This document shows positions 27,438 to 55,112 of a stretch of DNA of 64,000 nt, one piece after another. The DNA is from Ectothiorhodospiraceae bacterium BW-2 (GTDB lineage: Bacteria > Pseudomonadota > Gammaproteobacteria > Thiohalomonadales > Thiohalomonadaceae): the NCBI GenBank assembly GCA_008375315.1, contig CP032507.1, positions 186,001 through 250,000 of the forward strand, given 5' to 3'. The notes beneath the pieces are model-generated. The model made no database searches. It was not told where the DNA came from and saw nothing but the letters and a program-made list of their open reading frames with translations. Positions within the stretch are counted from its first letter, which is position 1; every line of letters begins with the position of its first letter. A program made the translations under genes and the position numbers.

Positions 27438-27466
27438 CTCCTTAGTTCAGTTCAAGCTACCACCGT

Positions 27467-27780: not shown

Positions 27781-27864
27781 ATGAAGTGGTACCATCCTGT
27801 CTCAGGAACACTGAATTAAAAAGGGAAAAGCGGCGCTACGGCCCATCACCGGGAGAAATTGTCT

Positions 27865-30800
27865 ATGACTCTAAACCAACGGGACATCTCCCGACTTAGC
27901 TTCATTGTCATCACCGACACTCATGCATCCGCCAAGCGCTATTGGCTACAGGGAAATTGCCACCTGAGGGGGATTAATTTTTTTGGTGGCCATATTGAAG
28001 AGGGTGAGCGTGCCGCCGAGACAGCGCTTCGAGAGTTCATGGAAGAGATTGGTAACCGTGAGCTGGAGTCTAAGTGGCATTTAGATACAGACACCGCCCC
28101 ACAGCTCGCCACTTCTATAGATAGGTTACGGAATGAGCTGATACCGTTATGGCCAGATCGGGTTCACCGTTTTCCGTTTTACTCGCTGCGTATGGGGCGA
28201 GAACGCATCGCTGAATGCTACTTTTTTGAGCTCTGCATTGAGAGCTTTAACGATATTATTGCCCGGCTAGAGTGGTTAGCTGAACACTCTCTGCATTGCG
28301 ACAAACTCGATCGATCACTACCGGGGGCAGAGCCGCTCACTATGGAACAGCTAAACCAGCTCCGGCTAACTCAACCCTATAACCCCTTTATACGCTACTT
28401 TTTTAAGCAGCAGCTTATCCACACTTCGTCTCAGCAGCAGTGGGCAGAGCTGGCCTGCGCGATTGAGTGTCACTTACGAAACTGGTTTACCGTGTCTGAG
28501 CAGGCGCTCACTGCCGAATTTTTACTCCCTGAGCCCGGTGAAGTAGCACAGGCACTGCGTTATAACCGCACCTTAATGATGAACCTTAACCTCTATTACG
28601 GAGAGTCAGAACCGCTCTGTTTGACACTGCCCTACCCCGAAGCGGGACTGTTTATGCGCGAGAGTAGCGCCTCATCACCCGACTTTTATCACTGGCTCCC
28701 GACCCTGCGCCTTCGTCCCGGTATTTGGGCACTACAACGGTGGCAAGGTGACGGTCAAACCATTGCCCAGCGTAAAATCGTCATCTCTTTGCCACAGGGC
28801 ACGACCGTAACCCTGCCGTGGCCGCTACCTAAAAACGCTATAACCGCGACCGATCTAGCTGAAAAAAAGTTCACGCTACCACCGCAATGGGACTCTAACC
28901 TCAACCAAAACCACATTAACCACTTTAAACAGCAGCAGTGCTGGAGTCGGGAGCAGCTCATTGAGTACTTTAATCGCTTCTTACCTAAAGATAGCGAACT
29001 TAAAGAGAGTGAAGCCGTCGTCGATCCTGCTCTGATTAGCGACCATTGGCACGATGAAGATGATCTGGCACACCAATGCATTAACCACTACCCGCGTTAT
29101 ATTCTCGACCAACTCACTGACTATCTACTACAACAGAGCGACGATCAGATCACCCCGATAGATGTCGAACAGTGGCAGCGACTGATTGCACCTAAATTGC
29201 TCTATTCACTCCAATCCCGACTCCAGTTTCAACGCCTGAGCCAGAGTGAACCCCGCTTTATCTTGCCGTTTGATCCACTCAACGGTGTCGATGCCCTCTC
29301 TCGTCTGAATCAACTCACACGATACCCTTGGCCCGGCCATGTACTTGAACAACTCCCCGGGCAGTTTCGCCAAAATCACCCTAGTTTTCGCAACCTCATC
29401 TGTCCGTTTGAGACCCCCGAATCGAAACGAATCGGCCTTAATCTCTACCTAAGTGCCGGCACAAGCGTTGATGTTGAAGGCAGACTCACCCCGGCACCCG
29501 ACGGCCATAATGCCATCGGTCATGCAGCACAACTGGTACCGTTTAGCGCTCACAATGATGCACCTCGGGTGATGATGGGCGCCAAAAACATGAAACAGGC
29601 GGTGACACTCAAACAGCCTGAGCCTCCCCTGCTGACGACCGGTAACGAAGCCGAATGGATCACACGGTTAAAACCACTACATCGACTCGGCTTGATTGAT
29701 AGCGAACACGCTCTAGCCGATGGGCGCAACCTGCTGGTCGCTTATATGCCATTTGATGGCTGGAACTTTGAAGATGGCATGGTTGCTAACCAAAGTTTGC
29801 GCGAGAGTGGTGACTTCACCTGGCTCAGTGATCGCCAGACTGCCGGCCACTATATTCAACCGGGTTGGGAACCGGATTTAACCCCCAGAAAAGATTTTGA
29901 TAACGGACTACGGCAAGTGGGCAGCGAGCTCTATCCGGAAGGCAAAGAGGGTGCCATTATCGGCTGGTTTCGCCATTGTAGCAGCGGCACCACAGCCCCT
30001 CTGCGCCTCGCCCTAACGCATCCGGTCACGCTGTTAAAGTGTCACTACACGCCACCACGCCATACAGGCTGCGGCGGCTATTTGAGCTGGGAGAGCGAGC
30101 GCCGACTACCGTTGACAATCGGCGATAAACTGATGGCACGACACGGCAATAAAGGGGTGATGACCCGCTTTGTGCCCACCGAGCAGATGCCGCGCCTGCC
30201 GGATGATCCTAAGCTTCCACCATCGCTGCGGGGCAGAGCCGTTGATTTGGTACTGAACCCCAACGGGGTGATTTCCCGCATGAATCTCGGCCAATTGATT
30301 GAGACCCAACTGACACTTGCTAATGCGTTAGGAGAGACTCCGATTGTCACCGAAGTCGGTATCCAACTTACCGAAATGGAACGACAAGCAATGCAACAAC
30401 GGTTTCAACAGCATCCGGCTTTTGATGAGCATGGACGGATTCCGTTACAGCTAAGCGATGGCACCACCACCGAATTGGGCGTTGTGGTCGGCTGGCAATT
30501 TTTTATGCGCCTGAAGCAGTCACCGCTGCTCAAAAGCCATGTTCGCGGTCAGCCCAAACTAAACGACTCCCACTACGATACCACTACCGGTCAACCCTAT
30601 GGTGGCAAACGCCACGGTGGCGGCCAGCGCATCGGTGAAATGGAGATTTGGGCACTGGCGGCCCATCAGGCCGACCACCTGCTTCAGGCGATATTGACCG
30701 ATAAAAGCGATCCCACTCAACAGAGCTGGCAAGCGATTTGTGATCACCTTGCCGCACTACCTAACTGGCCGGAGCCTAAAACAGCGAAACAGCGGCAGGC

Positions 30801-33699
30801 GCTGCAACCATCGCTTATCCCCGGTTTTTTGCTTGAGCTGGCACATAACACCTTACACTATCGTCCGAAAAGCGCCACAGATTGGCAAACCACCCCAAAA
30901 ATCATCAACGCAGCTACCCTTGAGTTGAACAAAAAGGGCTCATTTAGCGGCTCCTTTCGCTGTAGCAGATCCGGTTGTGACTATCATCTAGCTCTCACTC
31001 AGGGGATTAGTGTCACCGAACGCGGCAAACTGCAACTGACACTTGAGGGGTGGTTGCAGCACCATGCTACGCATTGGCACCAACTAGAGCTGCATGAGCT
31101 CGATGCCTGTTTAAACCGCGTTGGAGATAACCCATTCGCCGAACAAGCGGTCACGCTCTATGCCGAGGATAAAGCGTTCACTCTGGAACTGACCCGTAAA
31201 CCGGGTAAATCGCCCAATCAATTCACCCTCAATGGCACTGTGTCATACAACGATGAGAGTGTCGGACTGAAACTTAACTGGCAAAGGGGTCAAGGCAAAA
31301 ACAGCCCTACCTTCAGCACAACCGATATTAAGCGTGCCGAAATCCGCTGCCCACGCCGACTGCACGGTTCCGCAACGCCCGATATAAGCGCCCAAACCGA
31401 CCATCAAACAACCTTAAATCCGGTCAGTGGCGGTCTCTACGACCCCGCTATTTTTGGCGAAAGCGGCACACAAGTGGGTCTCATTGAACTAACCCCAAAA
31501 ATCGTGGTTCCGGTACTGCCACCACGCTACCGCATGAGCTCACAGCAACAGCGGCAACTGCAACAAAAAGTCGAACAACTCGGCTATCTACCTCGCCCCG
31601 AAGGGCTCGATAGTGCCTATCTACAACTACTTAAAGCAAAAAACGATGCTGATAAACTCATCCCCTCCTCACTGTGGGACGAATGTGTCACGACTGCTCT
31701 CCAAGGGTTAAGCGACCCGACAAGCGCCACACTACTTATCGCCGCAGCACAACCCCACACACTTGAATCGGGCTATATCGAAAAACCGGTATTATCAGCA
31801 ACCCTCACAGCCGATCTCTATTGGGGGCTCAAAACGCTGCGCGATGGTCGTAAAGGTTCCAAACCGGTTAAAGGGCTATTAGAGCGCTTAAAAGGCAAAT
31901 TTGGCCTGTTACGCCGCCACGGTTTAGGGCGGCGGGTCGATCTCTCTGGCCGATTTGTGATTGTGCCCGACCCGACGATGGCGTGGGATGAGTGTGGCGT
32001 GTCGCCCAACGCACTGGCGGTACTACTAGGTAAACAGATTGCACAGTGGTTTGTTCTGCCACTACAACCCGATCTGCCCGATAAGGTTAAATCGGCGCAG
32101 CATTGGCAAAAAATGGGAGCCCGTAGCCACCTGCCACGCGATATTCACCCCGATGAAATCACCATCATTGCCAGCTATCTTGAAGCCCATCCTGATCTCC
32201 ATCTGCTGCTGAATCGTGCCCCTTCACTACACCGCTATAGCATGATGGCATTTCGACCTAAATGTTTGCCGATAGACGATGGTGCCGTTTTGCGCATCCA
32301 CCCGCTGGTCTGTAGCGGTTTTGGTGCCGACTTTGATGGCGATGAGATGAGTCTGCATCTGCCACTAACTGAAGCCGAACAACAGCAGGCAAAACATCTA
32401 CTCTCACCACTCGCGCCCCATAACCTGCTCTCGGTAGCGGATGGTCAACCGCTGGCCGGATTCAGTCAGGACTTTGTGTTGGGTTTCTATCTGGCGGGTG
32501 AGAAGAGATCAAGTCGGCAGGCGATAAAAACGCTACTGCCAGAGCCCTGCTGCCAAGAACTTCTAGCTGCAACCCATTGGGATAAAAAAGTGGGCGCAAA
32601 GCTCATCAACCATCTCTGCAAAACACATCAAACCGAAGCCGGCCAGGTTATTCCCGCACTAATGCGCAACTGCATGGAGCTTGCAACGCGCTATGGGGTC
32701 TCGTTCGGCTATCTGGAGCTATCTCAACTCGCTCAAAACCTACCGCCTTTTGATTTCAGTATCGACTACCTTAAATGGGCACAACCACCTGAACCAGAGC
32801 AGGAGCCAAAGCCGATAGAGTCGGCCGAACCTAATAGCGCACTGAATCGCAGAGTCAATGACGCGGTTCGCCAGCTTGCAACCCAATGGCAAACCGATTC
32901 CGCGCTCGGTTTTGCTCTGCTTGCCCACAGTGGCGCTCGGGGGGGTGCGGAACAGACCCGTCAGGTTCTGATAGCGCGCGGCGAGTTAGATGGCGGCATC
33001 ATCGGTTTTGATCGCCATGCCGCCCGATTTGAACACGCCAGCACACTGGTCAGCGGAGTCGATGCAGATGAGCAGTTTTGGGGTGCGTTCAATGGCCGCT
33101 CCTCGATGATTGATAAAAAGCTCGGCACCCCACAGGCCGGTTACCTTACCCGTCAACTGGTTTTGGCAGCTTGGGGTTGGACCGTGGTCGATGAGGATTG
33201 TGGTCAGGTTTCAGAGCGATCACTATTAACCTGCCAACTGCATAGCCAACAACAGCGCCGCGCTATCTGCCGCCACTGCTATGGCGAACCGCTTAACGGC
33301 TCGCCGCCGCACTACCCCTATCCGGCAGGACTCATCGCCGCCCAATCGTTTGGCGAACGCGGCACGCAGCTGTCGATGCAGAGCTTTCATACCGGTAAAA
33401 AGGCGATCTCTCTGGCAGGGGTACAGCAGATTATTCTCAGAGCCCGTCAAGGTGAGCTTAAGCCCGACGATTTTGTAACCGAACTTAGCGACATCAGCGC
33501 CTATCAAAAACTCGATCGACGCCATCTTCAGCTTATCGCTCTGGCACTGGGGTGGCAGAGTCAATACCTGAGACTCGATCAGTTACTGGTCGGCTACCCG
33601 CAGCAGTTTGCCAATGTTGAGACCGATCTTAGTCAGCCATTAGCTGAATCCCCACTACTCCAACTACTGACCGCACACTGGGAGAGAGACCGTGGCTAA
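27865..33699 (+). CDS. Single-chain RNA polymerase (beta plus beta-prime) with N-terminal NUDIX domain
   Basis: A 1,944-residue protein. The ATG at 27865 is chosen over a TTG two codons earlier because GGGAG lies 10 bases upstream. Residues 41-63 form a complete NUDIX box (G-x5-E-x7-R-E-x2-E-E-x-G). Beta-subunit motifs follow: P-F-E-T-P-E-S-K-R-I-G-L-N (514-526), N-L-L-V-A-Y-M-P-F-D-G-W-N-F-E-D-G (622-638), R-H-G-N-K-G (759-764) and G-G-Q-R-I-G-E-M-E (919-927). Beta-prime motifs follow in the same chain: G-L-G-R-R-V-D-L-S-G-R (1353-1363), N-R-A-P-S-L-H-R, the catalytic A-D-F-D-G-D (1488-1493), a CRHC zinc site, and bridge/trigger region T-Q-L-S-M-Q-S-F-H (1834-1842). Housekeeping beta plus beta-prime is about 2,750 residues, so this is a minimal, third-lineage enzyme. 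No alpha, omega or sigma gene is near. It is translationally coupled to the next gene. Confidence 0.92.
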   Translation: MTLNQRDISRLSFIVITDTHASAKRYWLQGNCHLRGINFFGGHIEEGERAAETALREFMEEIGNRELESKWHLDTDTAPQLATSIDRLRNELIPLWPDRVHRFPFYSLRMGRERIAECYFFELCIESFNDIIARLEWLAEHSLHCDKLDRSLPGAEPLTMEQLNQLRLTQPYNPFIRYFFKQQLIHTSSQQQWAELACAIECHLRNWFTVSEQALTAEFLLPEPGEVAQALRYNRTLMMNLNLYYGESEPLCLTLPYPEAGLFMRESSASSPDFYHWLPTLRLRPGIWALQRWQGDGQTIAQRKIVISLPQGTTVTLPWPLPKNAITATDLAEKKFTLPPQWDSNLNQNHINHFKQQQCWSREQLIEYFNRFLPKDSELKESEAVVDPALISDHWHDEDDLAHQCINHYPRYILDQLTDYLLQQSDDQITPIDVEQWQRLIAPKLLYSLQSRLQFQRLSQSEPRFILPFDPLNGVDALSRLNQLTRYPWPGHVLEQLPGQFRQNHPSFRNLICPFETPESKRIGLNLYLSAGTSVDVEGRLTPAPDGHNAIGHAAQLVPFSAHNDAPRVMMGAKNMKQAVTLKQPEPPLLTTGNEAEWITRLKPLHRLGLIDSEHALADGRNLLVAYMPFDGWNFEDGMVANQSLRESGDFTWLSDRQTAGHYIQPGWEPDLTPRKDFDNGLRQVGSELYPEGKEGAIIGWFRHCSSGTTAPLRLALTHPVTLLKCHYTPPRHTGCGGYLSWESERRLPLTIGDKLMARHGNKGVMTRFVPTEQMPRLPDDPKLPPSLRGRAVDLVLNPNGVISRMNLGQLIETQLTLANALGETPIVTEVGIQLTEMERQAMQQRFQQHPAFDEHGRIPLQLSDGTTTELGVVVGWQFFMRLKQSPLLKSHVRGQPKLNDSHYDTTTGQPYGGKRHGGGQRIGEMEIWALAAHQADHLLQAILTDKSDPTQQSWQAICDHLAALPNWPEPKTAKQRQALQPSLIPGFLLELAHNTLHYRPKSATDWQTTPKIINAATLELNKKGSFSGSFRCSRSGCDYHLALTQGISVTERGKLQLTLEGWLQHHATHWHQLELHELDACLNRVGDNPFAEQAVTLYAEDKAFTLELTRKPGKSPNQFTLNGTVSYNDESVGLKLNWQRGQGKNSPTFSTTDIKRAEIRCPRRLHGSATPDISAQTDHQTTLNPVSGGLYDPAIFGESGTQVGLIELTPKIVVPVLPPRYRMSSQQQRQLQQKVEQLGYLPRPEGLDSAYLQLLKAKNDADKLIPSSLWDECVTTALQGLSDPTSATLLIAAAQPHTLESGYIEKPVLSATLTADLYWGLKTLRDGRKGSKPVKGLLERLKGKFGLLRRHGLGRRVDLSGRFVIVPDPTMAWDECGVSPNALAVLLGKQIAQWFVLPLQPDLPDKVKSAQHWQKMGARSHLPRDIHPDEITIIASYLEAHPDLHLLLNRAPSLHRYSMMAFRPKCLPIDDGAVLRIHPLVCSGFGADFDGDEMSLHLPLTEAEQQQAKHLLSPLAPHNLLSVADGQPLAGFSQDFVLGFYLAGEKRSSRQAIKTLLPEPCCQELLAATHWDKKVGAKLINHLCKTHQTEAGQVIPALMRNCMELATRYGVSFGYLELSQLAQNLPPFDFSIDYLKWAQPPEPEQEPKPIESAEPNSALNRRVNDAVRQLATQWQTDSALGFALLAHSGARGGAEQTRQVLIARGELDGGIIGFDRHAARFEHASTLVSGVDADEQFWGAFNGRSSMIDKKLGTPQAGYLTRQLVLAAWGWTVVDEDCGQVSERSLLTCQLHSQQQRRAICRHCYGEPLNGSPPHYPYPAGLIAAQSFGERGTQLSMQSFHTGKKAISLAGVQQIILRARQGELKPDDFVTELSDISAYQKLDRRHLQLIALALGWQSQYLRLDQLLVGYPQQFANVETDLSQPLAESPLLQLLTAHWERDRG

Positions 33700-34642
33700 C
33701 CAATATAGCCGGGATAAAACCCAAAGCCAAAAACGCTACACCACTCAGGAACAACGCCAATATCTGGACAATAAACGAGCCGCAACCCAAGGCCAACACG
33801 CCAGCCAGGCACGCGATCAGCTCAGTCAGGCGGCCGAACTGCGGCAAGAGTCGTGGCAAGATGAACTGCCATATGCCGAACTGCCCGATAGCGATCTCTT
33901 ATTAGATATAGAGTATGACCCTGATGAAACGCGACCTGAAGAGCCGGCAGATAGCGATAAACCTAATCGAGCCGTGGACGCCTTCTCCCCGCCTTCGTCC
34001 CATATTAACGCTATGGTCATTGAGCCAGAGCAGAGTTACTGGTTGGAGGTAGTTGAATACAATGGCACCATGCAGTGCCGCTTTCGTCAACCTGACTGGT
34101 TAAGTAACCCAACGCCCCAAGGGACAGCCCGACGCACCGTTGAGCGTATCTTAACGACGACGGCCTCCTGGCTGGAGCAGCATGGACAAGACTATCTACG
34201 CGAACCGACTGCGGAACACTATGCCCGGTTACAAGGAGCGTATCATAAAGAGATAAAAACCGAATCGATTGTCACTAAAGAGGGGCTCATCACTAAGTTA
34301 GACCTATTACCCGACAAAACGGAACCGAAAAAGTCTGATCTTAAAAATCTCAACACCGATTTAACCCGGATTTTCAATCATAGCTACCTCATCTGGCCAC
34401 AGCAGATGGCACTTCCTCTGACGATTTGGCTTGAAAGTGCTGACTATAGCCATGCCTGGATCGCAGAAGTGCTTAATGCCTATGGTACCTTTAAGAAGAG
34501 ATCATTTGACTGGTTTCAAATTGCGACAGAAAAACAGGGGATTCGCTACGCTGTATTGACCGATCTATTAAAAAATATCGGTAACGGTGTTAATCTGGCG
34601 TCAATCACAACCTACTTACAAAAATTGAGCGAACCGGAGTAA
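33692..34642 (+). CDS. Uncharacterised partner of the NUDIX-RNA polymerase
   Basis: A 316-residue protein starting with GTG inside the end of the polymerase gene (8-base overlap), so it is made together with it. Residues 1-60 are Gln/Arg-rich and helical, 60-110 are acidic and probably disordered (D-E-T-R-P-E-E-P-A-D-S-D). From about 115 there is a folded domain: a short beta part (S-Y-W-L-E-V-V-E-Y-N), then helices A-R-R-T-V-E-R-I-L-T-T-T-A-S-W-L-E-Q-H-G. This last segment loosely recalls the core-binding helices of sigma-54, which would suit the AAA+ neighbour; that likeness is weak and unproven. A role as a specificity or assembly factor of the polymerase is my inference. No known family recognised. 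Confidence 0.7.
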   Translation: MANQYSRDKTQSQKRYTTQEQRQYLDNKRAATQGQHASQARDQLSQAAELRQESWQDELPYAELPDSDLLLDIEYDPDETRPEEPADSDKPNRAVDAFSPPSSHINAMVIEPEQSYWLEVVEYNGTMQCRFRQPDWLSNPTPQGTARRTVERILTTTASWLEQHGQDYLREPTAEHYARLQGAYHKEIKTESIVTKEGLITKLDLLPDKTEPKKSDLKNLNTDLTRIFNHSYLIWPQQMALPLTIWLESADYSHAWIAEVLNAYGTFKKRSFDWFQIATEKQGIRYAVLTDLLKNIGNGVNLASITTYLQKLSEPE

Positions 34643-34645
34643 ACC

Positions 34646-36070
34646 ATGGCAAAAGAAGCGCTTCGTATCTTTGGGGAGTGGGATGACCACTCACTACAGG
34701 ATGCAGCAACTGAGTTATCCACCCAGGAGGGTATTGGTTTTATCGCTATTCCTGCCGGGGATGAGCTCTCCGAATGGTTAAAACAGAAAAAAGACGACAC
34801 CTGCCAACGCTGGGCTATCCTCTACGCCACTGGCGACAAACCCGATAGCACGCAACTGCTACAAAACCGCTCCACTGCGATTGAGCAGAGCGCCCTGTTT
34901 CGCCATCTGCAGCTCCCTATCGCTGAACCGAATGAGGGGTGGGTAGTCTGGTTAAAGCGGCAACTTAATGATTGGCTGTTTCCCGATGCGTGGTCGAGTG
35001 AAACGGCTGATCTGCAACAGGTCGGCTCATTAGTGGCGATTGATCCGAAAGATGCCACCACCCACTTCATGGTCGGCAATTCCACCCAACTCACACAACT
35101 ACTGGATCAGCTCGATACCATTAAACGCCGGTTTCGGCTACAGATTGGCGGAGCTGTCGGAGAGCGGCGCAAAAAAGTCCATGAAGCATTGAAATATCTG
35201 CTCGATAAAAATTGTAAGACAGAAGAGTCCAAACTCTATGCTGAAATAGCAAAAGCACTCAATAGCGAAAGCAAAGCCACAATTAACCGCACTTTTGCCC
35301 AAGTCCAACCGGAAGGGCTGCCCAAAGTGCTGGTCATGGGGCCATCGGGCGCAGGCAAATCCTTCGTTACCCACTATCTGCGCCGCCGCACTTCGGCCAA
35401 ACCCAGAGAATCACTTTATCGCCCCTACAGTCGGGTGGTGATTCCCGACTATCTCGGGGCTGAAGAGCGGCTGGAGTATGATCTGTTTGGCTACCGCAGT
35501 GGCAGTTATACCGGTGGACGCGATGAGGGCGATATGGGACTGCTGCTAAACCATATTGGTGGGGTGATCTTTATGGACGAAATTGGCGAGGCCTCCCCTG
35601 CCCTGCAAGCGAAGCTATTAGCGTTTATGGACGATTATCAGGTCAAGCCACGCGGCTGGTATGGCGAGGGGATATTCTGTCCGGTACTGTTAGTCGCCGC
35701 CACCAATAAGCCGATTGATGAGTGGGCCATTAACGATGAAAGCACAGAGGTTAACGATAAACCCCGTTTTCGTCACGATCTATTTCAGCGCTTTGATACC
35801 GTTATTCGTCTGCCGGGATTAAATGACAGGCGCGATGATCTACCGCCAATTATTGATGCACTGCTACAACTCGACTCGGTCAACCCTAACCAAGCGGTTA
35901 ACGCTATCACCACAGGTGCTGTGAGCTACCTGCAACAGGTTGACTACCAGCAGGGCAACTTTCGTCAACTACGCCGCCTGCTGATGCAGGGGTGTCAACG
36001 AGCCATTCAACGACAACAGGCCGTTATCCTTAAACAGGACATCGAGCATAGTTCCCCATCAAAGGCGTAA
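34646..36070 (+). CDS. Enhancer-binding-protein-like AAA+ ATPase
   Basis: A 474-residue protein starting 3 bases after the preceding stop. The C-terminal two thirds is an AAA+ module of the sigma-54-activator group: Walker A G-P-S-G-A-G-K-S (232-239), L-F-G-Y-R-S-G-S-Y-T-G-G (GSYTGG at 286-291, in place of GAFTGA), Walker B M-D-E-I-G-E (310-315) and R-F-R-H-D-L-F-Q-R-F with arginine-finger positions near 370-380. No C-terminal Fis-type DNA-binding domain is present. The N-terminal 200 residues are unknown and may be a sensor. In sigma-54 activators the GAFTGA loop contacts the sigma factor; the altered loop suggests a different partner, perhaps the 316-residue protein or the polymerase itself. 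Confidence 0.82.
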   Translation: MAKEALRIFGEWDDHSLQDAATELSTQEGIGFIAIPAGDELSEWLKQKKDDTCQRWAILYATGDKPDSTQLLQNRSTAIEQSALFRHLQLPIAEPNEGWVVWLKRQLNDWLFPDAWSSETADLQQVGSLVAIDPKDATTHFMVGNSTQLTQLLDQLDTIKRRFRLQIGGAVGERRKKVHEALKYLLDKNCKTEESKLYAEIAKALNSESKATINRTFAQVQPEGLPKVLVMGPSGAGKSFVTHYLRRRTSAKPRESLYRPYSRVVIPDYLGAEERLEYDLFGYRSGSYTGGRDEGDMGLLLNHIGGVIFMDEIGEASPALQAKLLAFMDDYQVKPRGWYGEGIFCPVLLVAATNKPIDEWAINDESTEVNDKPRFRHDLFQRFDTVIRLPGLNDRRDDLPPIIDALLQLDSVNPNQAVNAITTGAVSYLQQVDYQQGNFRQLRRLLMQGCQRAIQRQQAVILKQDIEHSSPSKA

Positions 36071-36099
36071 AAAAGCAGTGGAACCTGTGTCGCAAAAGA

Positions 36100-36222: not shown

Positions 36223-37416
36223 GCCGAGAGGCATATCCTTACCGGTAGGGGTTGGAACACAATGAAAGTCCATTGACTCTGGATTAATGGGCCGAGAGGC
36301 ATATCCTTACCGGTAGGGGTTGGAACCTTCTATTTTGACCAACCATAGCGTACTGGCTATGGCCGAGAGGCATATCCTTACCGGTAGGGGTTGGAACAAT
36401 CCTTTAGATAAATAGTTCTCGGCACCCGCCGAGAGGCATATCCTTACCGGTAGGGGTTGGAACACAATGAAAGTCCATTGACTCTGGATTAATGGGCCGA
36501 GAGGCATATCCTTACCGGTAGGGGTTGGAACCTTCTATTTTGACCAACCATAGCGTACTGGCTATGGCCGAGAGGCATATCCTTACCGGTAGGGGTTGGA
36601 ACAATCCTTTAGATAAATAGTTCTCGGCACCCGCCGAGAGGCATATCCTTACCGGTAGGGGTTGGAACTGTATTAGCCTCGCTTGATAACGAGTTTAAAC
36701 TGCCGAGAGGCATATCCTTACCGGTAGGGGTTGGAACTGGTTCGGACATAAATTCATCCTCATGTGATTGCCGAGAGGCATATCCTTACCGGTAGGGGTT
36801 GGAACTCAATAGAACAGCTAATCGGCATTCCCAATATAGCCGAGAGGCATATCCTTACCGGTAGGGGTTGGAACCTTTTCGCCAAACCCAACTTTGTCCG
36901 TAGACATCGCCGAGAGGCATATCCTTACCGGTAGGGGTTGGAACTTTCAGCGACTTGATAGCTACTTCTACCCTCCAGGCCGAGAGGCATATCCTTACCG
37001 GTAGGGGTTGGAACCTTTGTCGGGTCAAACCTCTCCTTTTTAGAGCCGAGAGGCATATCCTTACCGGTAGGGGTTGGAACGATTTCCGCATCAACCTGCC
37101 TATAGGTGTGTGTGCCGAGAGGCATATCCTTACCGGTAGGGGTTGGAACTGTATGTCTGCAGTACCTCGTGTTAACGAGCCGAGAGGCATATCCTTACCG
37201 GTAGGGGTTGGAACCATAGTCAGACAAGTCAAACTTCAAATATGGGCCGAGAGGCATATCCTTACCGGTAGGGGTTGGAACCATCTTTCTCTGTAATAAC
37301 CAATAGCTCCATGCCGAGAGGCATATCCTTACCGGTAGGGGTTGGAACATTTTCTAATAACTCTCGTATTTCAATCATTTGCCGAGAGGCATATCCTTAC
37401 CGGTAGGGGTTGGAAC
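36223..37416 (+). CRISPR. CRISPR array 1: 18 repeats, 17 spacers
   Basis: The 36-base repeat starts GCCGAGAGGCATATCCTTAC, continues CGGTAGGGGTTGGAAC, and is unchanged in all 18 copies. It contains the palindrome TACCGGTA. Spacers are 30-35 bases. Repeats start at 36223, 36291, 36362, 36428, 36496, 36567, 36633, 36702, 36770, 36839, 36909, 36979, 37045, 37114, 37179, 37246, 37313 and 37381. Spacers 1-3 are repeated exactly as spacers 4-6 (a 205-base tandem duplication). Leader position and the terminal eight bases GTTGGAAC as a 5' handle both indicate rightward transcription. Short frames read through the array are artefacts of the 36-base repeat. Confidence 0.98.
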
Positions 37417-37449
37417 GGGTGGCAACACCCAGCCTGCCACTGCTGGCTA

Positions 37450-37480
37450 TTGCCATCAACTGTAATTACACTATAATTAC
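37450..37480 (+). promoter_or_regulatory. Promoter/operator of mazEF
   Basis: TTGCCA (37450-37455) and TATAAT (37472-37477) are 16 bases apart. TGTAATTACA (37461-37470) is a perfect palindrome and TATAATTACA repeats half of it over the -10 box, a likely MazE binding site for autoregulation. A small hairpin (GGGTGGCAACACCC, 37417-37430) lies just after the last CRISPR repeat. Confidence 0.6.
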
Positions 37481-37506
37481 AATCAACCATCGCTAGGAGA
37501 AGGAAA

Positions 37507-37761
37507 ATGGCGCAATTAATTCAAATTGGTAACTCGCAAGGCATTCGCATTCCAAAGCCGATAATAGATCAAGCCCAACTAAGTGGTGCTGAGCTTGAGC
37601 TTGAGATTGTGCAGGAAGGGTTATTAATTAAACCGAAAAAAAAGGCGCGTTCAGGTTGGCAAACCGCCATAGAAGAGACACTATCCCGCAATAAAAAACA
37701 GGAGGTCGATCAGGAGTGGCTCAACGCCCCCCTTACTGATAATAGAGAGATAGAGTGGTGA
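37507..37761 (+). CDS. mazE: MazE-like antitoxin (AbrB fold)
   Basis: An 84-residue protein with an N-terminal swapped-hairpin AbrB/MazE DNA-binding domain (I-G-N-S-Q-G-I-R-I-P-K-P near residues 7-18) and an acidic C-terminal tail (V-D-Q-E-W-L-N-A-P) that normally wraps the toxin. AGGAGAAGGA precedes the ATG. The stop overlaps the toxin start. Sits between CRISPR array 1 and the NYN gene, probably an island stabiliser. Confidence 0.88.
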   Translation: MAQLIQIGNSQGIRIPKPIIDQAQLSGAELELEIVQEGLLIKPKKKARSGWQTAIEETLSRNKKQEVDQEWLNAPLTDNREIEW

Positions 37762-38084
37762 CACCAAACATCCAACGATTTGAAGTCTGGCTTATCGGAC
37801 TAAACCCCACCACAGGAAGAGAGATAAACAAAACACGCCCCTGCGTTATCATCTCCCCGAATGAGATGTCAGCCCTATCAACCGTCATTGTTGCCCCGAT
37901 GACCACAAAAGGCTTTACATACCCTTGCCGGGTGCCGGTAGAGTTTCAGCAAAAAAACGGACTGATTTTGATTGACCAAATCAGAGCCCTTGATAAAAGC
38001 CGCTGTATAAAAAAACTGGGAATAATCGATCAACCAACCCAACACGCCCTGTGCCAATGTTTGCAAGAGATGTTCGCCTACTAA
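37755..38084 (+). CDS. mazF: MazF/PemK-type mRNA interferase toxin
   Basis: A 109-residue toxin: R-F-E-V-W-L-I-G-L-N-P-T-T-G-R-E (usually G-D-V-W-x-V-x-L-x-P), K-T-R-P-C-V-I-I-S-P, V-A-P-M-T-T, and L-I-D-Q-I-R-A-L-D near residue 75. These correspond to the MazF core with its substrate-binding Arg and Thr. It starts with GTG at 37755 (or the next GTG), overlapping the mazE stop. It cleaves mRNA at short sequences in the family. Intact. Confidence 0.88.
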   Translation: MVTPNIQRFEVWLIGLNPTTGREINKTRPCVIISPNEMSALSTVIVAPMTTKGFTYPCRVPVEFQQKNGLILIDQIRALDKSRCIKKLGIIDQPTQHALCQCLQEMFAY

Positions 38085-38141
38085 AAAAATCACCCGCCAC
38101 AAACTTTACACCCCCGCTTTGAATTGGGACTGATATTTTTA

Positions 38142-38178
38142 TGTGAGTTTCTTTTGTTGGTGATACCCAACGGTATCA
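38142..38178 (+). promoter_or_regulatory. Shared motif plus hairpin, upstream of the NYN gene
   Basis: TGTGAGTTTCTT (38142-38153) followed by TGATACC-CAAC-GGTATCA (38161-38178), a 7-bp stem with a 4-base loop. The same arrangement recurs before the vWA gene (TGATGCC-CTAC-GGCATCA), where one stem pair is changed on both sides. The start codon is 32 bases further. Confidence 0.6.
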
Positions 38179-38209
38179 ACCCCCATTAGCCCACAAAAGG
38201 AGCACAGCT

Positions 38210-39100
38210 ATGTCTTTTAAGCGTCGTTTTACCCAACTCTTCACTCGTTCAAAGCCACAGGCCACCCGACTACCGAACCAACCTGTGGCTGCAAATCCCC
38301 CGCCAACACTATCTGTACCACCGATCACGCCACCGCTACACAGCGAGGTCTTTATCGATACCGATAACTGCTTTGGGGCGCTAAACCAGATCAATCGCGA
38401 TCTGGCACTGCTCTTTTTGCACCATCCTCAGCAGCTCGAAGCGTTTATTCAGCAGCAGATTGGCGGCACGCTCACCTTTCGTTACTACGGTAACCCTGCG
38501 TTTCTGATCCAGCGGGGATTTACCCGCCCGCTACAATCCAACCCTTCGACACACCGGGGCAAAAACTCCGATGACATTCAGATTGCCCTCGATGTGGCTC
38601 ATCTGCCAGCCTCGGTGACATCGGTAGTGATTGTTAGCGCCGACAGCGACTTTATTCCGGTAGCTCAACGCTGCCAGCAGCAACAGAAGCAAGCGATTAT
38701 GGTGCCACTTGGCCGTTTTAAGCCGCACAACTACGGTGAATATGATCGGATCATCAACCCAGATAGGCTGATTCAGCAGTTGCAGCAGCTGGTTGAGATT
38801 CGCCACAACGATCACAACCCGCCACAGCCCGCACTACCGAAAAAGCCATCCTCGCCTCCGGTACCAAAGAGCCAACACCGCTTAAAGGCCGCGCAAAAGA
38901 TCGCCGTGCGTAACTTTTTGCACGATGAGTTGCGCGAGCGCCACCAACTGAATCTGGCCGAAACCGGCTATCAGCTGCGGCAGCGTTTTAACCTGCATGA
39001 CCACCACTGGTACGGTTATGGTAGTTGCAAAAAGCTCTGTCTGGCTCTGCTCGATAGCGTTAAGCTGGATGAGACGGGATACAAGTTGCTGCCACGCTAA
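38210..39100 (+). CDS. NYN-domain (PIN-like) RNase
   Basis: A 296-residue protein with an N-terminal low-complexity linker (1-45) and a NYN nuclease domain: V-F-I-D-T-D-N-C-F-G (Asp50, Asp52), N-S-D-D-I-Q-I-A-L-D (Asp121/122) and V-S-A-D-S-D-F (Asp145, Asp147), i.e. the acidic metal site of this PIN-related fold. After a Pro-rich linker (about 205-225) the C-terminal 70 residues form a helical domain, possibly LOTUS/OST-HTH-like (R-N-F-L-H-D-E-L-R-E-R... G-Y-G-S-C-K-K-L). NYN-LOTUS proteins bind and cut RNA. AAAGGAG precedes the ATG. It is an accessory of this CRISPR island by position. Confidence 0.82.
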   Translation: MSFKRRFTQLFTRSKPQATRLPNQPVAANPPPTLSVPPITPPLHSEVFIDTDNCFGALNQINRDLALLFLHHPQQLEAFIQQQIGGTLTFRYYGNPAFLIQRGFTRPLQSNPSTHRGKNSDDIQIALDVAHLPASVTSVVIVSADSDFIPVAQRCQQQQKQAIMVPLGRFKPHNYGEYDRIINPDRLIQQLQQLVEIRHNDHNPPQPALPKKPSSPPVPKSQHRLKAAQKIAVRNFLHDELRERHQLNLAETGYQLRQRFNLHDHHWYGYGSCKKLCLALLDSVKLDETGYKLLPR

Positions 39101-39116
39101 CTGCGCCTAAACCGTT

Positions 39117-39140
39117 CACCCTCTTCCCCCGAAGAGGGTG
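39117..39140. terminator. Hairpin after the NYN gene
   Basis: CACCCTCTTC-CCCC-GAAGAGGGTG: a perfect 10-bp stem with a 4-base loop, 16 bases after the NYN stop. There is no T-run. Confidence 0.6.
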
Positions 39141-39155
39141 ATTTACAAAATAAAA

Positions 39156-39185
39156 TTGTGAGTTTCTTCTATAGGTATCTTTTTT
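39156..39185 (+). promoter_or_regulatory. Shared motif upstream of cas2
   Basis: TTGTGAGTTTCTT (39156-39168), then GGTATCTTTTTTACC, a weak GGTA/TACC hairpin. The cas2 start is at 39207. This is the second of four occurrences; the 13-mer is identical to the third. Confidence 0.55.
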
Positions 39186-39206
39186 ACCCACACCGGAGAT
39201 ACCGCC

Positions 39207-39488
39207 ATGAAGAGCCCGCAAAACTTTGTTGTCGCTTACGATGTCAGCTCCAACAGAGAGCGCAGCCGCATTAGTAAACTGCTCGAAGGCTACGGTTTTC
39301 GCGCCCAAAAGAGCCTGTTTGAGATCCGAGCTGACAAAACCACACTACGCCGCCTGACCCGTGCGCTACAGGCGCTGAATCTGACCAGTGGTTTTGCCCG
39401 CATCTACCCGCTCGGTTATCGCGTTGCCCCGGTCTCAATTGGTGAAGCACCGCCCGCGAGTGATGCCGACTCGCTCTATCTCTGCTGA
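39207..39488 (+). CDS. cas2: CRISPR integration protein Cas2
   Basis: A 93-residue ferredoxin-fold protein. V-V-A-Y-D-V-S-S-N-R-E-R-S-R (Asp11) and L-L-E-G-Y-G-F-R-A-Q-K-S-L-F-E are characteristic of Cas2, as is the dimer-forming C-terminal strand region. Cas2 dimers bridge Cas1 dimers during spacer integration. Its partner Cas1 is here fused to Cas6 and a reverse transcriptase, 16 kb downstream; cas2 stands alone with its own upstream motif. A GGAG ribosome binding site precedes the start. Confidence 0.92.
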   Translation: MKSPQNFVVAYDVSSNRERSRISKLLEGYGFRAQKSLFEIRADKTTLRRLTRALQALNLTSGFARIYPLGYRVAPVSIGEAPPASDADSLYLC

Positions 39489-39511
39489 GAAGCTATTTAC
39501 TCTCAATTTAT

Positions 39512-39573
39512 TTGTGAGTTTCTTAAATAAACAGAACAACCGTTAAACCGGCAATTATTTATCGGTTTCCTAG
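39512..39573 (+). promoter_or_regulatory. Shared motif upstream of the small protein and kinase operon
   Basis: TTGTGAGTTTCTT (39512-39524), followed downstream by AAACCG...CGGTTT (about 39545-39570), a 6-bp stem. The gene start is at 39617. Confidence 0.55.
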
Positions 39574-39616
39574 ATAACCCAATCCCCCCTTTAACCTATC
39601 TTCCTAGGAGTGAGCC

Positions 39617-39871
39617 ATGCGCCATATCGACCGTAACATTATGAAAATTCTGCGTCCGTTTTTGAAGCAAAATAGTGCATTAAGCATCGAAAACGGTTCC
39701 AAGCACAACAAGCTGCGCCACCGCCTCACCGGTGACTGGCTGCTGCTGGCCGGCTCGGTGAGCGATCATCGGGCTATGAAAAACTTTCAAGCCGATCTGA
39801 AGCGTTTCGTCACTACCGGCGAAGGCTTTATCTACCGTCAGACCGGTACTTTACCGTTGCAATCTGCCTAA
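39617..39871 (+). CDS. Small basic protein, HicA-like pattern
   Basis: An 84-residue basic protein. The segment N-G-S-K-H-N-K-L-R-H-R-L-T-G-D-W (about residues 26-41), with S-D-H-R-A-M-K-N-F-Q-A-D-L-K-R after it, follows the HicA arrangement of a Gly-Ser-x-His strand and a final helix, a dsRBD-like RNA-binding fold. It is not a convincing HicA toxin, since no HicB gene is beside it. It is followed 10 bases later by the kinase with AAGGAGG, so the two are co-expressed. Function unknown. Confidence 0.6.
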   Translation: MRHIDRNIMKILRPFLKQNSALSIENGSKHNKLRHRLTGDWLLLAGSVSDHRAMKNFQADLKRFVTTGEGFIYRQTGTLPLQSA

Positions 39872-39881
39872 GGAGGCTACG

Positions 39882-40973
39882 ATGTGGTTCCCATTTACCG
39901 CTATTTTCTCTTCGCCGACAACACCCGCTCCGGCTCAGACTTTACACAGGCCAAAGCCGGTGGTGACCCCTCCCCCTTTAACGACTATCATCGATCCACA
40001 AGGCCAACAGCGTCAACTCGATTCGGAACTGGCCCGTGGTGGTGAAGGGAGTATCTATCCCCTGCAAGATCGGCCTGAGGTGTTGATCAAGCTCTACCAC
40101 CCAGAGGTGTTGCAAAAGCGTGGTGCGCTGTTGCAACAGAAGGTTGAGCAGATGACCACCCTTGCAACGACCCTGCCCGATTCATTGAGCTGGCCTAAAT
40201 TGTCGGTCTTCCACCCGAACCATCCCGACCGCTGGCTCGGCTACGCCATGCGCCGCATGGAGGGTAAACCGATGAAGCTAATGGCGCACGCCGTCGCTTA
40301 TCGTAAACACTTTCCCGGACTGGATCGGATTGCGATGGTGAACTATCTGCTCCAGCTGTTAAAGCTGCTCGATGAGCTGCACCAAAAGCAGATTTTTATT
40401 GGCGACTACAATCTCAATAACATCCTCTGCCAGCCGGGTAGCAATCGCGTCGGCTTAATCGACTGCGACAGCTATCAGGTTAGCCTGAATGGTAAGCACT
40501 ACCCCTGCCCCGTCGGCAGTCCCGATATGACACCGGTCGAGCACCATGGCCAATCGTTTGAACAGCTGGTCCGCACCCCAGAGAGCGAACGCTTTTCGGT
40601 CGCCATGATTCTGTTTAAGGCGTTAATGCTCGGTCGCCACCCCTACGACATTGTCGGGGGGGATGATCCGGTGACTAACCTTAAGCGCGGGAATTTTCCC
40701 TATGGCAAGGGCAAATATGGCATTCCAGAAGGACATTGGTACAACATCTGGAGCCATATGCCCCACAAGCTTAAGTCGATGTTTATCTCCACCTTTACTG
40801 ACGGCGTTCACGATCCGGCACTGCGCCCTACGCTGCAGCAGTGGCATGACGAGCTGAAGCTCTATCGCAAGAATATGCAGCGCGACTGGCACGATACCCG
40901 GGTGATTCCGCCTGAACCGAAGAGCAGTGAATACCGGGGCAATCGCAGCGATATCTCCCGCGAATCGTGCTAA
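39882..40973 (+). CDS. Eukaryotic-type protein kinase of a TerY-P-like triad
   Basis: A 363-residue protein kinase. After a Pro-rich N-terminus, A-R-G-G-E-G-S-I-Y gives the glycine loop (52-59), V-L-I-K-L-Y the ATP Lys (about 70), I-G-D-Y-N-L-N-N-I-L the catalytic loop (Asp175, in place of HRD-x4-N), and L-I-D-C-D-S-Y the metal site (DCD in place of DFG, Asp194). No transmembrane segment. Kinases of this shape are linked to TerY-type vWA and PP2C genes, and both lie directly downstream. They are thought to form a phosphorylation switch in stress and defence systems. Substrate unknown. Confidence 0.82.
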   Translation: MWFPFTAIFSSPTTPAPAQTLHRPKPVVTPPPLTTIIDPQGQQRQLDSELARGGEGSIYPLQDRPEVLIKLYHPEVLQKRGALLQQKVEQMTTLATTLPDSLSWPKLSVFHPNHPDRWLGYAMRRMEGKPMKLMAHAVAYRKHFPGLDRIAMVNYLLQLLKLLDELHQKQIFIGDYNLNNILCQPGSNRVGLIDCDSYQVSLNGKHYPCPVGSPDMTPVEHHGQSFEQLVRTPESERFSVAMILFKALMLGRHPYDIVGGDDPVTNLKRGNFPYGKGKYGIPEGHWYNIWSHMPHKLKSMFISTFTDGVHDPALRPTLQQWHDELKLYRKNMQRDWHDTRVIPPEPKSSEYRGNRSDISRESC

Positions 40974-40992
40974 CCCCTAACCCTGTTCACCT

Positions 40993-41020
40993 GAGCGGCA
41001 CCCCTTGCCGCTCTTTTTTT
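40993..41020 (+). terminator. Intrinsic terminator after the kinase gene
   Basis: GAGCGGCA (40993-41000) pairs with TGCCGCTC (41006-41013) and is followed by seven T. A classical rho-independent terminator. Confidence 0.85.
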
Positions 41021-41045
41021 GTCTAAACCACTGAGGAACCTAGCT

Positions 41046-41123
41046 ATGTGTACCCTCTCTATTCTCTTTAACCTGCTTATTCTCGGCCTGATCATTTTGG
41101 CCGCTTTGAAGATGAACATGTAA
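41046..41123 (+). CDS. Very small membrane protein
   Basis: A 25-residue frame: M-C-T-L-S, then an uninterrupted hydrophobic stretch (I-L-F-N-L-L-I-L-G-L-I-I-L-A-A-L), ending K-M-N-M. GAGGAA lies about 10 bases upstream. It could be a type I toxin-like or regulatory membrane peptide. The frame is short enough to be fortuitous, but the hydrophobic run and the ribosome binding site argue for a real gene. Confidence 0.4.
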   Translation: MCTLSILFNLLILGLIILAALKMNM

Positions 41124-41127
41124 TTAT

Positions 41128-41165
41128 TTGTGAGTCTCTTAATTAACTGATGCCCTACGGCATCA
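41128..41165 (+). promoter_or_regulatory. Shared motif plus hairpin, upstream of the vWA gene
   Basis: TTGTGAGTCTCTT (41128-41140) and TGATGCC-CTAC-GGCATCA (41148-41165). Compared with the NYN copy the stem pair A-T is G-C here, a compensating change. The gene starts at 41207. Confidence 0.6.
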
Positions 41166-41206
41166 TCTGACTATCATTCATCTCTATCACACTACGGAGT
41201 TATACC

Positions 41207-41851
41207 ATGAACGATCTGATCGACAACCCCTCTCCCCGCTGCGCTTGTGCTCTGGTACTCGATACCTCTGGCTCTATGATGGGCGCTCCCATTGCTGAGC
41301 TCAATCAGGGTCTGCTGGAGTTTATCCACACCATTAAGGAGGATGATACCGCCGCCTACTCAGTTGAGCTGGGTATCTTTACTGCCGGCGGTCAGGTGCA
41401 GGAGCTGCTCCCTTTCACCACGCTGAACGAGCTGGAGACGCTCGCCCCTCTCTCCGCTCGTGGAGGAACACCACTGGGCGAAGCGGTCGAGTTGGCAATT
41501 AAGCGGCTAGATGAGCGCAAGCAGGCCTATAAGCAGAACGGTGTGCCCTACTATCAGCCGTGGATGGTGATGATGAGCGATGGTGAGCCCACTGATACCT
41601 GGCAAGGGGCAGCGGCAACGGCGCGGATGCTCTCCGAGAGCCGCAAGCTGGTTTCGCTCCCGGTGGGGGTGCAGGGGGCTAATCTTAACACCCTCGGCCA
41701 GTTCTCCCATCGTGGCGCTAAGGCGATGGCCGGGCTGAAGTACCATGAGTTCTTCCAGTGGCTCTCAGCCAGCATGAGCCGTGTCTCAACTTCAGCTTCC
41801 ACCAGCTCTGCGGTCGCGCTGCCGCAGACCGCTTCGTGGGACACCATCTAG
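41207..41851 (+). CDS. TerY-like von Willebrand A domain protein
   Basis: A 214-residue vWA domain with a complete MIDAS: L-D-T-S-G-S-M (DxSxS, residues 19-23), the Thr in G-G-T-P-L-G-E (near 87) and M-S-D-G-E-P-T-D (near 124). It binds a divalent ion and usually recruits protein partners. The gene overlaps the PP2C start (TAGTG) and follows the kinase, giving the TerY-P-type triad of vWA, phosphatase and kinase. Such triads accompany tellurium-resistance-like and phage defence systems. Cytoplasmic; no signal peptide. Confidence 0.85.
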   Translation: MNDLIDNPSPRCACALVLDTSGSMMGAPIAELNQGLLEFIHTIKEDDTAAYSVELGIFTAGGQVQELLPFTTLNELETLAPLSARGGTPLGEAVELAIKRLDERKQAYKQNGVPYYQPWMVMMSDGEPTDTWQGAAATARMLSESRKLVSLPVGVQGANLNTLGQFSHRGAKAMAGLKYHEFFQWLSASMSRVSTSASTSSAVALPQTASWDTI

Positions 41852-42813
41852 TGGGCGCACTGCATAAGTGGCTGCATCTGCCCAATCCTGCGCCACCATC
41901 GGTACCGTTAATGGCTGCCGATGCGTGGCAGATCATGGAGGAGGCGGTGGTGGGGCTGGCTCACCGCCGTGTCAATCTTCCTTGTCAGGATGCCGTCCGT
42001 GCCGTGAACCACCCCCGTCCGGCGCTGGTGGTCGCTGACGGTGCCGGTAGTTCGCCGCTGTCGCATCAGGGCGCCCAAGCGGTCGTGGCCGGATTGATTC
42101 GCCTGTTTGAAACGCTCGATAAGCCGCTCTATGAGCTGCTTGATGCCGCCGACACCCCCGATAGCAATTTGGGACGTAGCTGGGCGCTGGTCATCGTTAA
42201 GCACGCCATGGGCTTGCTGACCGATTTGGCAGCTCAGCAGCAGCGTTCCGTCAGCGATTTTCGTTCCACTTTGCTGGTAGTGCTGGCCGGACAGCAGCGG
42301 CTCTTGTGGCTCAAGGTGGGTGACGGGGCGCTGGTCATTGAGCGCTGTGCCCCCTCTGACACCGAACCGTTCGAGTCGATGCTCTCAACCCTCGGTGAGG
42401 TCGGCAAGGGTGAGTTTGCCAATCAGACGCAGTTTCTCGATGCGATTGAACCGGATGATGTGCAGTCGGATCTGCTCGATATGGGCAATATCTGCGGCAT
42501 GGCACTCATGAGTGATGGCGCGGCCGAACGCTTAATCTCCCACGATGGCACACAGGTTGCCGCTCGCTTAACCACGCTGTTACAGCAGTTGCGCCAAGGT
42601 CGTCTGGCTCGCTCAACCCTAACGCAGATGTTCTATGAGGAGTCATTTTGCAAGGGTACTAGCGGTGATGATCGCTCTTTAGCACTCGCTGCACTGCCGG
42701 TGACTTTCTGTGAAACGACACAGCCATCGCATGAGCCTGCCACTTCGTCTGAAGTGCAACCGGAACCGAAAAAGAGTCCCCCTCGTAAGCGGCGGCGTAA
42801 AAGCCGTCAATAG
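41851..42813 (+). CDS. PP2C-family protein phosphatase
   Basis: I chose the GTG at 41851, which overlaps the vWA stop; M-A-A-D-A-W at 41911 is an alternative. About 320 residues. PP2C motifs: L-P-C-Q-D-A-V (metal Asp), L-V-V-A-D-G-A-G-S-S (metal DG), a V-G-D-G segment near residue 156, L-M-S-D-G-A-A-E and G-D-D-R-S-L-A-L at the end of the domain. The last 30 residues are a Lys/Arg/Pro-rich tail (P-P-R-K-R-R-R-K-S-R-Q), perhaps for nucleic-acid binding. It opposes the kinase of the triad. Confidence 0.85.
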   Translation: MGALHKWLHLPNPAPPSVPLMAADAWQIMEEAVVGLAHRRVNLPCQDAVRAVNHPRPALVVADGAGSSPLSHQGAQAVVAGLIRLFETLDKPLYELLDAADTPDSNLGRSWALVIVKHAMGLLTDLAAQQQRSVSDFRSTLLVVLAGQQRLLWLKVGDGALVIERCAPSDTEPFESMLSTLGEVGKGEFANQTQFLDAIEPDDVQSDLLDMGNICGMALMSDGAAERLISHDGTQVAARLTTLLQQLRQGRLARSTLTQMFYEESFCKGTSGDDRSLALAALPVTFCETTQPSHEPATSSEVQPEPKKSPPRKRRRKSRQ

Positions 42814-42905
42814 CCGCTAACCCATCCACTCTAACCGCTGCTCTGCTGCAGTATCTGCTACGGCAACTAGGACTCCCTCCGCTTGCCTAATCCCCCTCCT
42901 CTCTG

Positions 42906-42931
42906 TTACCGCCTGTTTTAGCAGGCGGTAA
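42906..42931. terminator. Hairpin after the phosphatase gene
   Basis: TTACCGCCTG pairs with CAGGCGGTAA around a 6-base loop (TTTTAG). No T-run follows. It separates the triad from the next operon (start 43046). The intervening 42814-43045 has no further supported gene. Confidence 0.6.
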
Positions 42932-43045
42932 TGCCCTCCTCTCTCTCAAAAATAGCTATTTCCCCCCTGTTTCCCTCGTTTTAGGCTTAAGCTATGCCAT
43001 AATAGCGGCTATCCTAGACACTCTAAATTGAACTTAGCTATACCC

Positions 43046-55111: not shown

Positions 55112-55112
55112 G

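Follow-up and report, generated by a model that had tools for sequence, protein, structure and literature searches.

Jumbo phages that encode their own RNA polymerases each possess a conserved motif upstream of operons presumed to be early, and in the phages with transcript profiles this motif turned out to be an early promoter; as far as the available part of the source goes, the motifs vary from phage to phage (PMC7598289). For YonO, the polymerase of the SPbeta prophage, the promoter sequence is left open in the accessible part of its description (PMC5467207). Here we describe a motif of 12 nucleotides (nt), TGTGAGTTTCTT, that stands before four gene units of a bacterial island of clustered regularly interspaced short palindromic repeats (CRISPR), which also encodes an RNA polymerase. 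The island lies in a window of 64,000 nt from Ectothiorhodospiraceae bacterium BW-2 (contig CP032507.1, positions 186,001 to 250,000), and coordinates are those of this window unless a genome position is named. We propose that the motif is the promoter core of the island's own transcription machine, formed by a single-chain polymerase, an adjoining protein termed X and an AAA+ protein. This is the best supported reading of the data, and we put its probability at about one half.

The motif occurs as three exact copies and a fourth, TGTGAGTCTCTT, with a change of T to C at position 8; all four are on the + strand and each precedes a different unit, as the original prediction had described. Copy 1 (38142..38153) stands before an NYN-domain gene (38210..39100; Pfam PF01936, 3e-11), and copy 2 (39157..39168) before cas2 (39207..39488; Pfam PF09827, 4e-12). 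Copy 3 (39513..39524) precedes a HicA-like gene and a kinase-like gene (39617..40973; PADLOC HicA-like 5e-9, and Pkinase 6e-4, which is under the cut-off). Copy 4 (41129..41140) precedes the vWA and PP2C genes (41207..42813; Pfam) that start the fourth unit, and the genes further downstream include Cas10, RAMP proteins and a Cas6-reverse transcriptase (RT)-Cas1 fusion; these units, too, are all on the + strand. The distance from the end of the motif to the ATG is 56, 38, 92 and 66 nt for copies 1 to 4, respectively, and GGAG precedes each of the four start codons. By eye, the motif is flanked by AT-rich DNA on both sides.

A scan of the whole genome (4,074,140 bases) revealed three exact matches to TGTGAGTTTCTT, every one inside the island, compared to about 0.3 expected per genome at the composition of the window. 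With one mismatch allowed, the motif has eight matches and a reversed control pattern nine. The eight comprise the three exact copies, copy 4 and genome positions 76165, 201391 (window 15391), 1986928 and 2599794, and the last four of these are at chance level. The claim that the motif occurs nowhere else thus holds for exact matches, and a wide spread through the genome, which had been named as grounds for giving up the link to the island, was not seen.

A 30-nt matrix built from the four sites scores them at 38.0, 37.2, 39.9 and 38.6 bits for copies 1 to 4, respectively, whereas the next positions in the window reach 13.3 and 10.9 bits. The former, at 39560..39571 on the + strand, is a possible degenerate copy in the leader of copy 3 and begins 47 nt past the start of that copy. 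When each site was left out in turn, sites 1 to 4 still scored 22.4, 22.0, 28.3 and 25.2 bits, and the score of the omitted site was equalled nowhere else in the window, whichever strand was scanned. Scans of the + strand found no motif-like site before the polymerase gene (27400-27900, best -2.0 bits), nor before the two CRISPR arrays (36070-36230 and 58166-58900) or the gene for a TCAD9-domain protein (42813-43060), where the best score was 1.5 bits. The matrix is unspecific in AT-rich DNA: among 240 other loci of viral and archaeal type (4.44 Mb), the best site reaches at least 17.4 bits in 36, with a top value of 27.3, and the eight top-scoring loci are 61-75% AT. The exact 12-nt count is free of this weakness.

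The genes taken into account between 38084 and 58166 all lie on the + strand, with six gaps of more than 50 nt between co-directional neighbors, four of which hold the motif (the gaps number five if the 24-codon open reading frame (ORF) 41046-41120, taken as a gene by eye, is excluded). One of the two motif-free gaps, 40973-41046, follows the kinase-like gene and contains an intrinsic-terminator-like hairpin (40993..41013, + strand) with six G-C pairs and a run of seven T, which thus lies upstream of copy 4; in total, seven terminator-like sites were found in the region against 5.9 expected. The other is 42813-43047. Ordinary promoter signals were sought in the same DNA. A scan of 37400-43200 for TTGACA and TATAAT hexamers 16-18 nt apart found seven sigma-70-like sites against 4.3 expected, of which those on the + strand are at 37450 (11 of 12 bases), 37825 and 39963 only. 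None falls in the four motif gaps, in agreement with the original remark that no sigma-70 box is nearby. A scan of the window for the sigma-54 pattern TGGCAC-N5-TTGCW with at most two mismatches gave 39 matches against 38.95 expected, which is chance, and none in the four motif gaps. As neither scan found a match in these gaps, we rejected the motif as a sigma-70 or a -24/-12 promoter.

The polymerase gene (27859..33699, + strand), identified through Pfam, PDB sequence matches and its relatives, encodes 1946 residues in one chain, for which Pfam reports NUDIX, Rpb2 and Rpb1 domains. Its catalytic stretch, GADFDGD, aligns with that of the bacterial beta' subunit in solved structures. The gene for protein X, a candidate initiation factor (33692..34642), and that for the AAA+ protein (34646..36070) follow on the same strand. 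The latter has an AAA+ domain of the sigma-54-activator type (Pfam Sigma54_activat 6.5e-22; PDB ZraR 1e-20; PADLOC RtcR_PspF2 4e-27), with GSYTGG in place of GAFTGA. The Pfam match to the lid stops at residue 450 of 474, so that 24 residues remain, and the PADLOC match, which covers residues 212-467 and profile positions 178-411 of 481, ends before the last 70 positions of the profile. No C-terminal DNA-binding domain was seen with Pfam, PADLOC or an alignment with four relatives, and Pfam and PADLOC scans of the first 200 residues gave no CARF match. The host genome has one ordinary rpoN. A search with the AAA+ protein matched in 313 of 369 genomes, the best match outside its own genome being 36-37% identical over the AAA+ domain; these matches mainly look like ordinary activators.

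Relatives of the polymerase are rare. They were found in 2 of 68 genomes from the phylum of G386 (the genome of locus L128), 5 of 387 from the phylum of G385 (the genome of locus L124) and 13 of 161 from the order of G735, three groups that overlap and contain the starting genomes. Within the class of the window (274 genomes, E up to 1e-60) and its phylum (398 genomes, E up to 1e-100), the only polymerase match was in its own genome. When the whole polymerase served as the query, initial scans of genome and viral contigs returned no relatives, and plasmid records held short matches only, covering 10-14% of the query among the best 20 of 36. Segment and alignment queries yielded 80 loci each in viral contigs, 22-55% identical over segments, which were excluded as members, and a query of conserved pieces from the window gave two true relatives among the best 80, while the remaining 78, archaeal according to their titles, were far weaker where listed.

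We examined 13 polymerase-bearing relative contigs together; L124, which has an X-like gene before the contig ends, L128, where the contig also ends, and G1293 stand outside this set. The polymerases of the relatives are 27-40% identical to that of the island over aligned segments. A homolog of X directly follows the polymerase in 12 of the 13 contigs (E 9e-19 or better), four of which had been used for the X profile and eight of which are independent. In 11 of the 13, a related AAA+ gene (E 2e-75 or better; four of these matches had gone into the AAA+ profile) is found no more than 4.3 kb from X: it adjoins X in five contigs, and in six the distance is 2.8 to 4.3 kb. The AAA+ gene is missing in G1254, where X is present and the contig ends 1.7 kb past it, and in G592. 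The AAA+ protein of G735 is a full RtcR-type CARF-AAA protein (2e-93), and others among the relatives look alike in alignment. In G406, a genome from a phylum sampled around a Hydrogenedentota record, locus L286 (3-13976) carries polymerase, X and AAA+ genes in the same order as in the window, after which come PglW, a PDC-S02-type gene and a PglX truncated where the contig stops (E 0 for both PglW and PglX). As the trio adjoins genes of bacteriophage exclusion (BREX) in G406, it is not tied to CRISPR. By sequence similarity and gene order, the polymerase, X and the AAA+ protein are a recurrent unit, which neighbors CRISPR genes in the window and BREX genes in one relative.

Several lines of evidence lead to the promoter reading: copies of the motif stand before separate units and are restricted to the island that encodes the polymerase; a terminator-like site precedes copy 4; the four gaps are without a sigma-70 or -24/-12 match, although an 11/12 sigma-70 site exists at 37450; the flanks are AT-rich on both sides; and the polymerase belongs to the recurrent trio. 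We propose that the NUDIX-beta/beta' fusion polymerase would read the motif as its promoter, that X may bind the polymerase as an initiation factor, and that the AAA+ protein might remodel or activate the polymerase-X complex. Transcription of the motif-free operon of the trio would itself start elsewhere. When activated, the machine would transcribe four units, encoding the NYN nuclease, Cas2, the HicA-like and kinase-like proteins, and the vWA-PP2C pair, the last possibly extending through the long gene run to Cas6-RT-Cas1. If transcripts start a few bases past the motif, they would open with a hairpin at three of the four units, and such a hairpin may protect the 5' end.

A number of findings weigh against this proposal. 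The scan of the related loci, called for in the original prediction, found the motif with at most one mismatch in none of the 13 contigs. The best matrix score among them is one site of 17.4 bits in G1273, while reversed contigs reach 14.8; we rejected this site as a lead, as its score is at chance level, being reached by the 36 of 240 other loci mentioned above. When four relatives were compared gene by gene, no motif was found before more than two genes. In the island itself, the gap at 42813-43047 is 233 nt long and motif-free, and could contain a further promoter. Pfam found no match to Rpb1 domain 1 in the polymerase, and an alignment with two relatives leaves only a short stretch between the start of beta' and PVLPPRYR; in cellular enzymes, this region forms the clamp and the main sigma contact. 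In G592 the polymerase occurs without X and without the AAA+ gene. Finally, a structure prediction of X with one homolog was useless, with a predicted local distance difference test (pLDDT) score of 37, and, as described below, X was not accepted as a diverged sigma-54. The missing conservation of the motif counts only moderately against a promoter, because the relatives are distant and differ in their genes, and one copy of the promoter may be enough for them. Thus, what would mark a promoter of an element-borne polymerase was found in one respect, namely the same short motif before four units of the polymerase-encoding island and no exact copies elsewhere, and was not found in another, namely conservation in the polymerase-bearing relatives. 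The latter is no bar to membership, because phage motifs of this kind also differ between phages according to the part of the source available (PMC7598289).

X is the natural candidate for the target factor, given that its partner is an AAA+ protein of the sigma-54-activator type. By eye, X has a WL..G helix and a SR...P.G..L...F stretch that resemble the helix-turn-helix of RpoN. Alignment of X and RpoN by hhalign pairs those same two stretches, without significance and with a probability under 2%, and comparison of profiles gave about 0 bits over an acidic linker only; five X proteins had no Pfam match. The single-sequence comparison was beaten by one of up to 60 shuffles. A profile of six members scored narrowly above 150 of 150 column shuffles (21.88 versus 21.81), though over a different segment, and 12 of 150 shuffles did as well as its C-terminal part. 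The test against 5463 natural decoy frames and 280 shuffles failed: 13 of the 14 aligned X proteins were reported, the best two at ranks 13 and 25 with E of 12-15. As significance was lacking, X as a diverged sigma-54 (RpoN) was kept as a lead only.

Further observations were made in the relatives. In G592, contig C6 (L300, L297 and L298) encodes a 2013-residue polymerase relative that is 31% identical to the island enzyme, the best single alignment among the 13 contigs, in a context that by eye bears an integrase; it is possibly a mobile-element version of the enzyme. In G732, an element of 19/20 identical bases precedes two genes and is, by eye, part of a longer inverted repeat. A conserved AT-rich block with the core AATTCAGAAAACTTGAAAG lies upstream of a DUF932-like gene (by eye) after X in L293, L313, L315, L317 and L319 (G732, G1259, G1256, G1231 and G1252, respectively); it is more changed in G1252 and was not found in G735. 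The block could be a promoter in that group of relatives. As a counterpart of the motif it was rejected, since at close match it is single-copy and its sequence does not resemble the motif.

The DNA that follows the motif bears on two other explanations. Copies 1 and 4 are each followed, after exactly 7 nt, by an 18-bp palindrome, TGATACC-CAAC-GGTATCA (38161..38178) and TGATGCC-CTAC-GGCATCA (41148..41165), both of which can be read as hairpins on the + strand. One base pair covaries between them, with both arms kept while changing, exactly as the original prediction had described. The pattern TGATRCC-CWAC-GGYATCA has no exact genome place besides these two, and the looser TGATNCC-N4-GGNATCA also has exact places there only; with one mismatch allowed, the latter has 12 places in the genome against four for the control. 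RNA folds from the motif to the ATG gave z values of -2.1, -2.9, -0.1 and -2.4 for copies 1 to 4, respectively, with 6, 2, 86 and 4 of 200 shuffles folding as well, and a Fisher combined p of 0.0012 for the four leaders. Copies 2 and 3 had been thought to have weaker stems; this is right for copy 3, whose leader does not fold above shuffles and has no hairpin at that place, but wrong for copy 2, whose hairpin (39174..39203, + strand) is strong, with nine pairs and a 12-nt loop. The copy 2 hairpin is unlike the other two in sequence and has a longer loop, and the GGAG ahead of the start codon falls within its 3' arm. The predicted hairpins of copies 1, 2 and 4 begin 5, 5 and 7 nt past the motif. 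Covariation of one pair in two sequences cannot separate an RNA hairpin from a DNA palindrome: the same place with an altered sequence fits a hairpin at an RNA 5' end, whereas the two-copy palindrome taken alone would also fit a DNA operator.

The strongest competitor, which we nevertheless regard as unlikely, is that a regulator of the island or the host binds TGTGAGTYTCTT, the palindrome or both, while the host polymerase uses weak or unusual promoters. Such an operator or activator site would agree with the restriction of the motif to the island, and the palindrome at a fixed 7 nt in copies 1 and 4 resembles a dimer site; moreover, the island has a sigma-54-activator-type AAA+ protein and the host its rpoN. 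However, the 12-nt motif is itself non-palindromic, copy 3 has no dyad and copy 2 has one at another spacing, and the four gaps offer no -24/-12 or sigma-70 match on which a regulator could act. The AAA+ protein is too short to hold a DNA-binding domain at its C-terminus and gave no CARF match, which weakens the version of this idea that was originally offered alongside a promoter and an RNA element; of the three, the promoter is best supported, by position, restriction and the recurrent trio.

Slightly less probable still is a purely post-transcriptional role, in which the motif and hairpin work in the leader of the messenger RNA, by controlling translation, stability or processing, for example by the NYN nuclease or Cas6. 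The hairpins at similar places in three of four leaders despite differing sequences, the compensating change between copies 1 and 4, the combined fold significance and the hairpin arm that covers GGAG at copy 2 argue for this role. Conversely, copy 3 has the top matrix score but lacks the hairpin, Rfam gave no match up to E 1 in 36000-43200, and the terminator-like site upstream of copy 4 implies a nearby promoter anyway. An RNA element and a promoter may well hold together. That the copies are functionless remnants of intergenic pieces duplicated during gene assembly is very improbable, since copies 3 and 4, which match at 21 of 23 positions around the motif, are not alike beyond this stretch, with 12 of 40 and 10 of 40 bases agreeing in the two flanks, and the palindrome common to copies 1 and 4 was changed yet kept in both arms.

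Building on the promoter reading, we tentatively suggest a wider and rather less probable picture: a recurrent immunity transcription machine, mobile between systems, made of a one-chain beta/beta' polymerase, X as its initiation factor and an ATP-driven, signal-gated AAA+ activator, with its own promoter TGTGAGTYTCTT and an initial hairpin. It might switch on type III CRISPR genes in this island and genes of BREX type in other genomes, even where a phage has captured or silenced the host polymerase, on which it would not depend.

Other features of the window were recorded beside these subjects. Between the first CRISPR array and the first motif copy lies a toxin-antitoxin-like gene pair (37450-38084; family assigned by eye), at which the near-consensus sigma-70 site stands. 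That array contains an exact 205-bp tandem duplication over three repeat-spacer units (36223-36632). The TCAD9-domain protein of this type III CRISPR island is encoded at 43047-46543, behind the longest, motif-free gap of the run, and searches of two genomes found no other such protein. An ORF at 55023-55517, which overlaps the gene before Cas6-RT-Cas1, resembles by eye a retropepsin-type aspartyl protease (VDSGAT). Transposase-like ORFs that form two pairs, each of identical and inverted members (17324-19426), adjoin a RAMP-like ORF (19457-20116) that by eye is like a Cmr1 fragment, and a divergent gap between DNA-ligase-like and ATPase-like genes (25178-25596; names by eye) holds a 20-nt repeat that reads 19/20 from both sides.

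Many phages shut off or take over the host RNA polymerase. If our proposal is true, an island that brings along a polymerase, initiation factor, activator and promoters of its own would lie beyond phage control of the host enzyme, and would mirror, on the immune side, the polymerases that phages encode. The findings suggest that an immune system, like some phages, may rely on a dedicated transcription machine of its own to turn it on. The motif makes this testable, with four predicted places of initiation and a mixture of three proteins. Apart from the motif, the recurrence of the trio in distant bacteria, by CRISPR here and by BREX in one other, points to a transcription module that merits description.

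Compared to known systems, the island shares with RT-linked type III CRISPR-Cas loci the presence of Cas10, RAMP proteins, Cas2, a Cas6-RT-Cas1 fusion and CRISPR arrays, but adds a dedicated RNA polymerase trio and a motif common to its units. To our knowledge, no RT-linked type III locus with such a trio and common motif is known; a search of open-access full-text literature found, among the papers listed, no CRISPR- or BREX-linked RNA polymerase, which, being limited to open access, is weak evidence. The AAA+ protein recalls the RtcR-type CARF-AAA activators of sigma-54 promoters, as described in the available parts of PMC9650030 and PMC7790460, through the match of its AAA+ domain to RtcR_PspF2. 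It differs in its GSYTGG loop, in having neither a CARF match nor a C-terminal DNA-binding domain, and in a motif that is no -24/-12 element. Like YonO of the SPbeta prophage, the island enzyme is a single-chain polymerase of the multisubunit lineage; YonO is DNA-dependent and serves the genes of its own element, as the island enzyme would do. YonO is prophage-borne and about 100 kDa in the part of its description available (PMC5467207), whereas the island enzyme has 1946 residues with beta, beta' and NUDIX domains and resides in an immune island. The multisubunit polymerases of jumbo phages are, as far as the source extends (PMC7598289), likewise element-borne enzymes of the beta/beta' type, with short, conserved promoter motifs before several units of the element. 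The island differs from them in that its polymerase is a single chain with a NUDIX domain, accompanied by X and the AAA+ protein in a bacterial CRISPR island, and its motif, a putative promoter, is a different one. In kind, the jumbo phages offer a close parallel.

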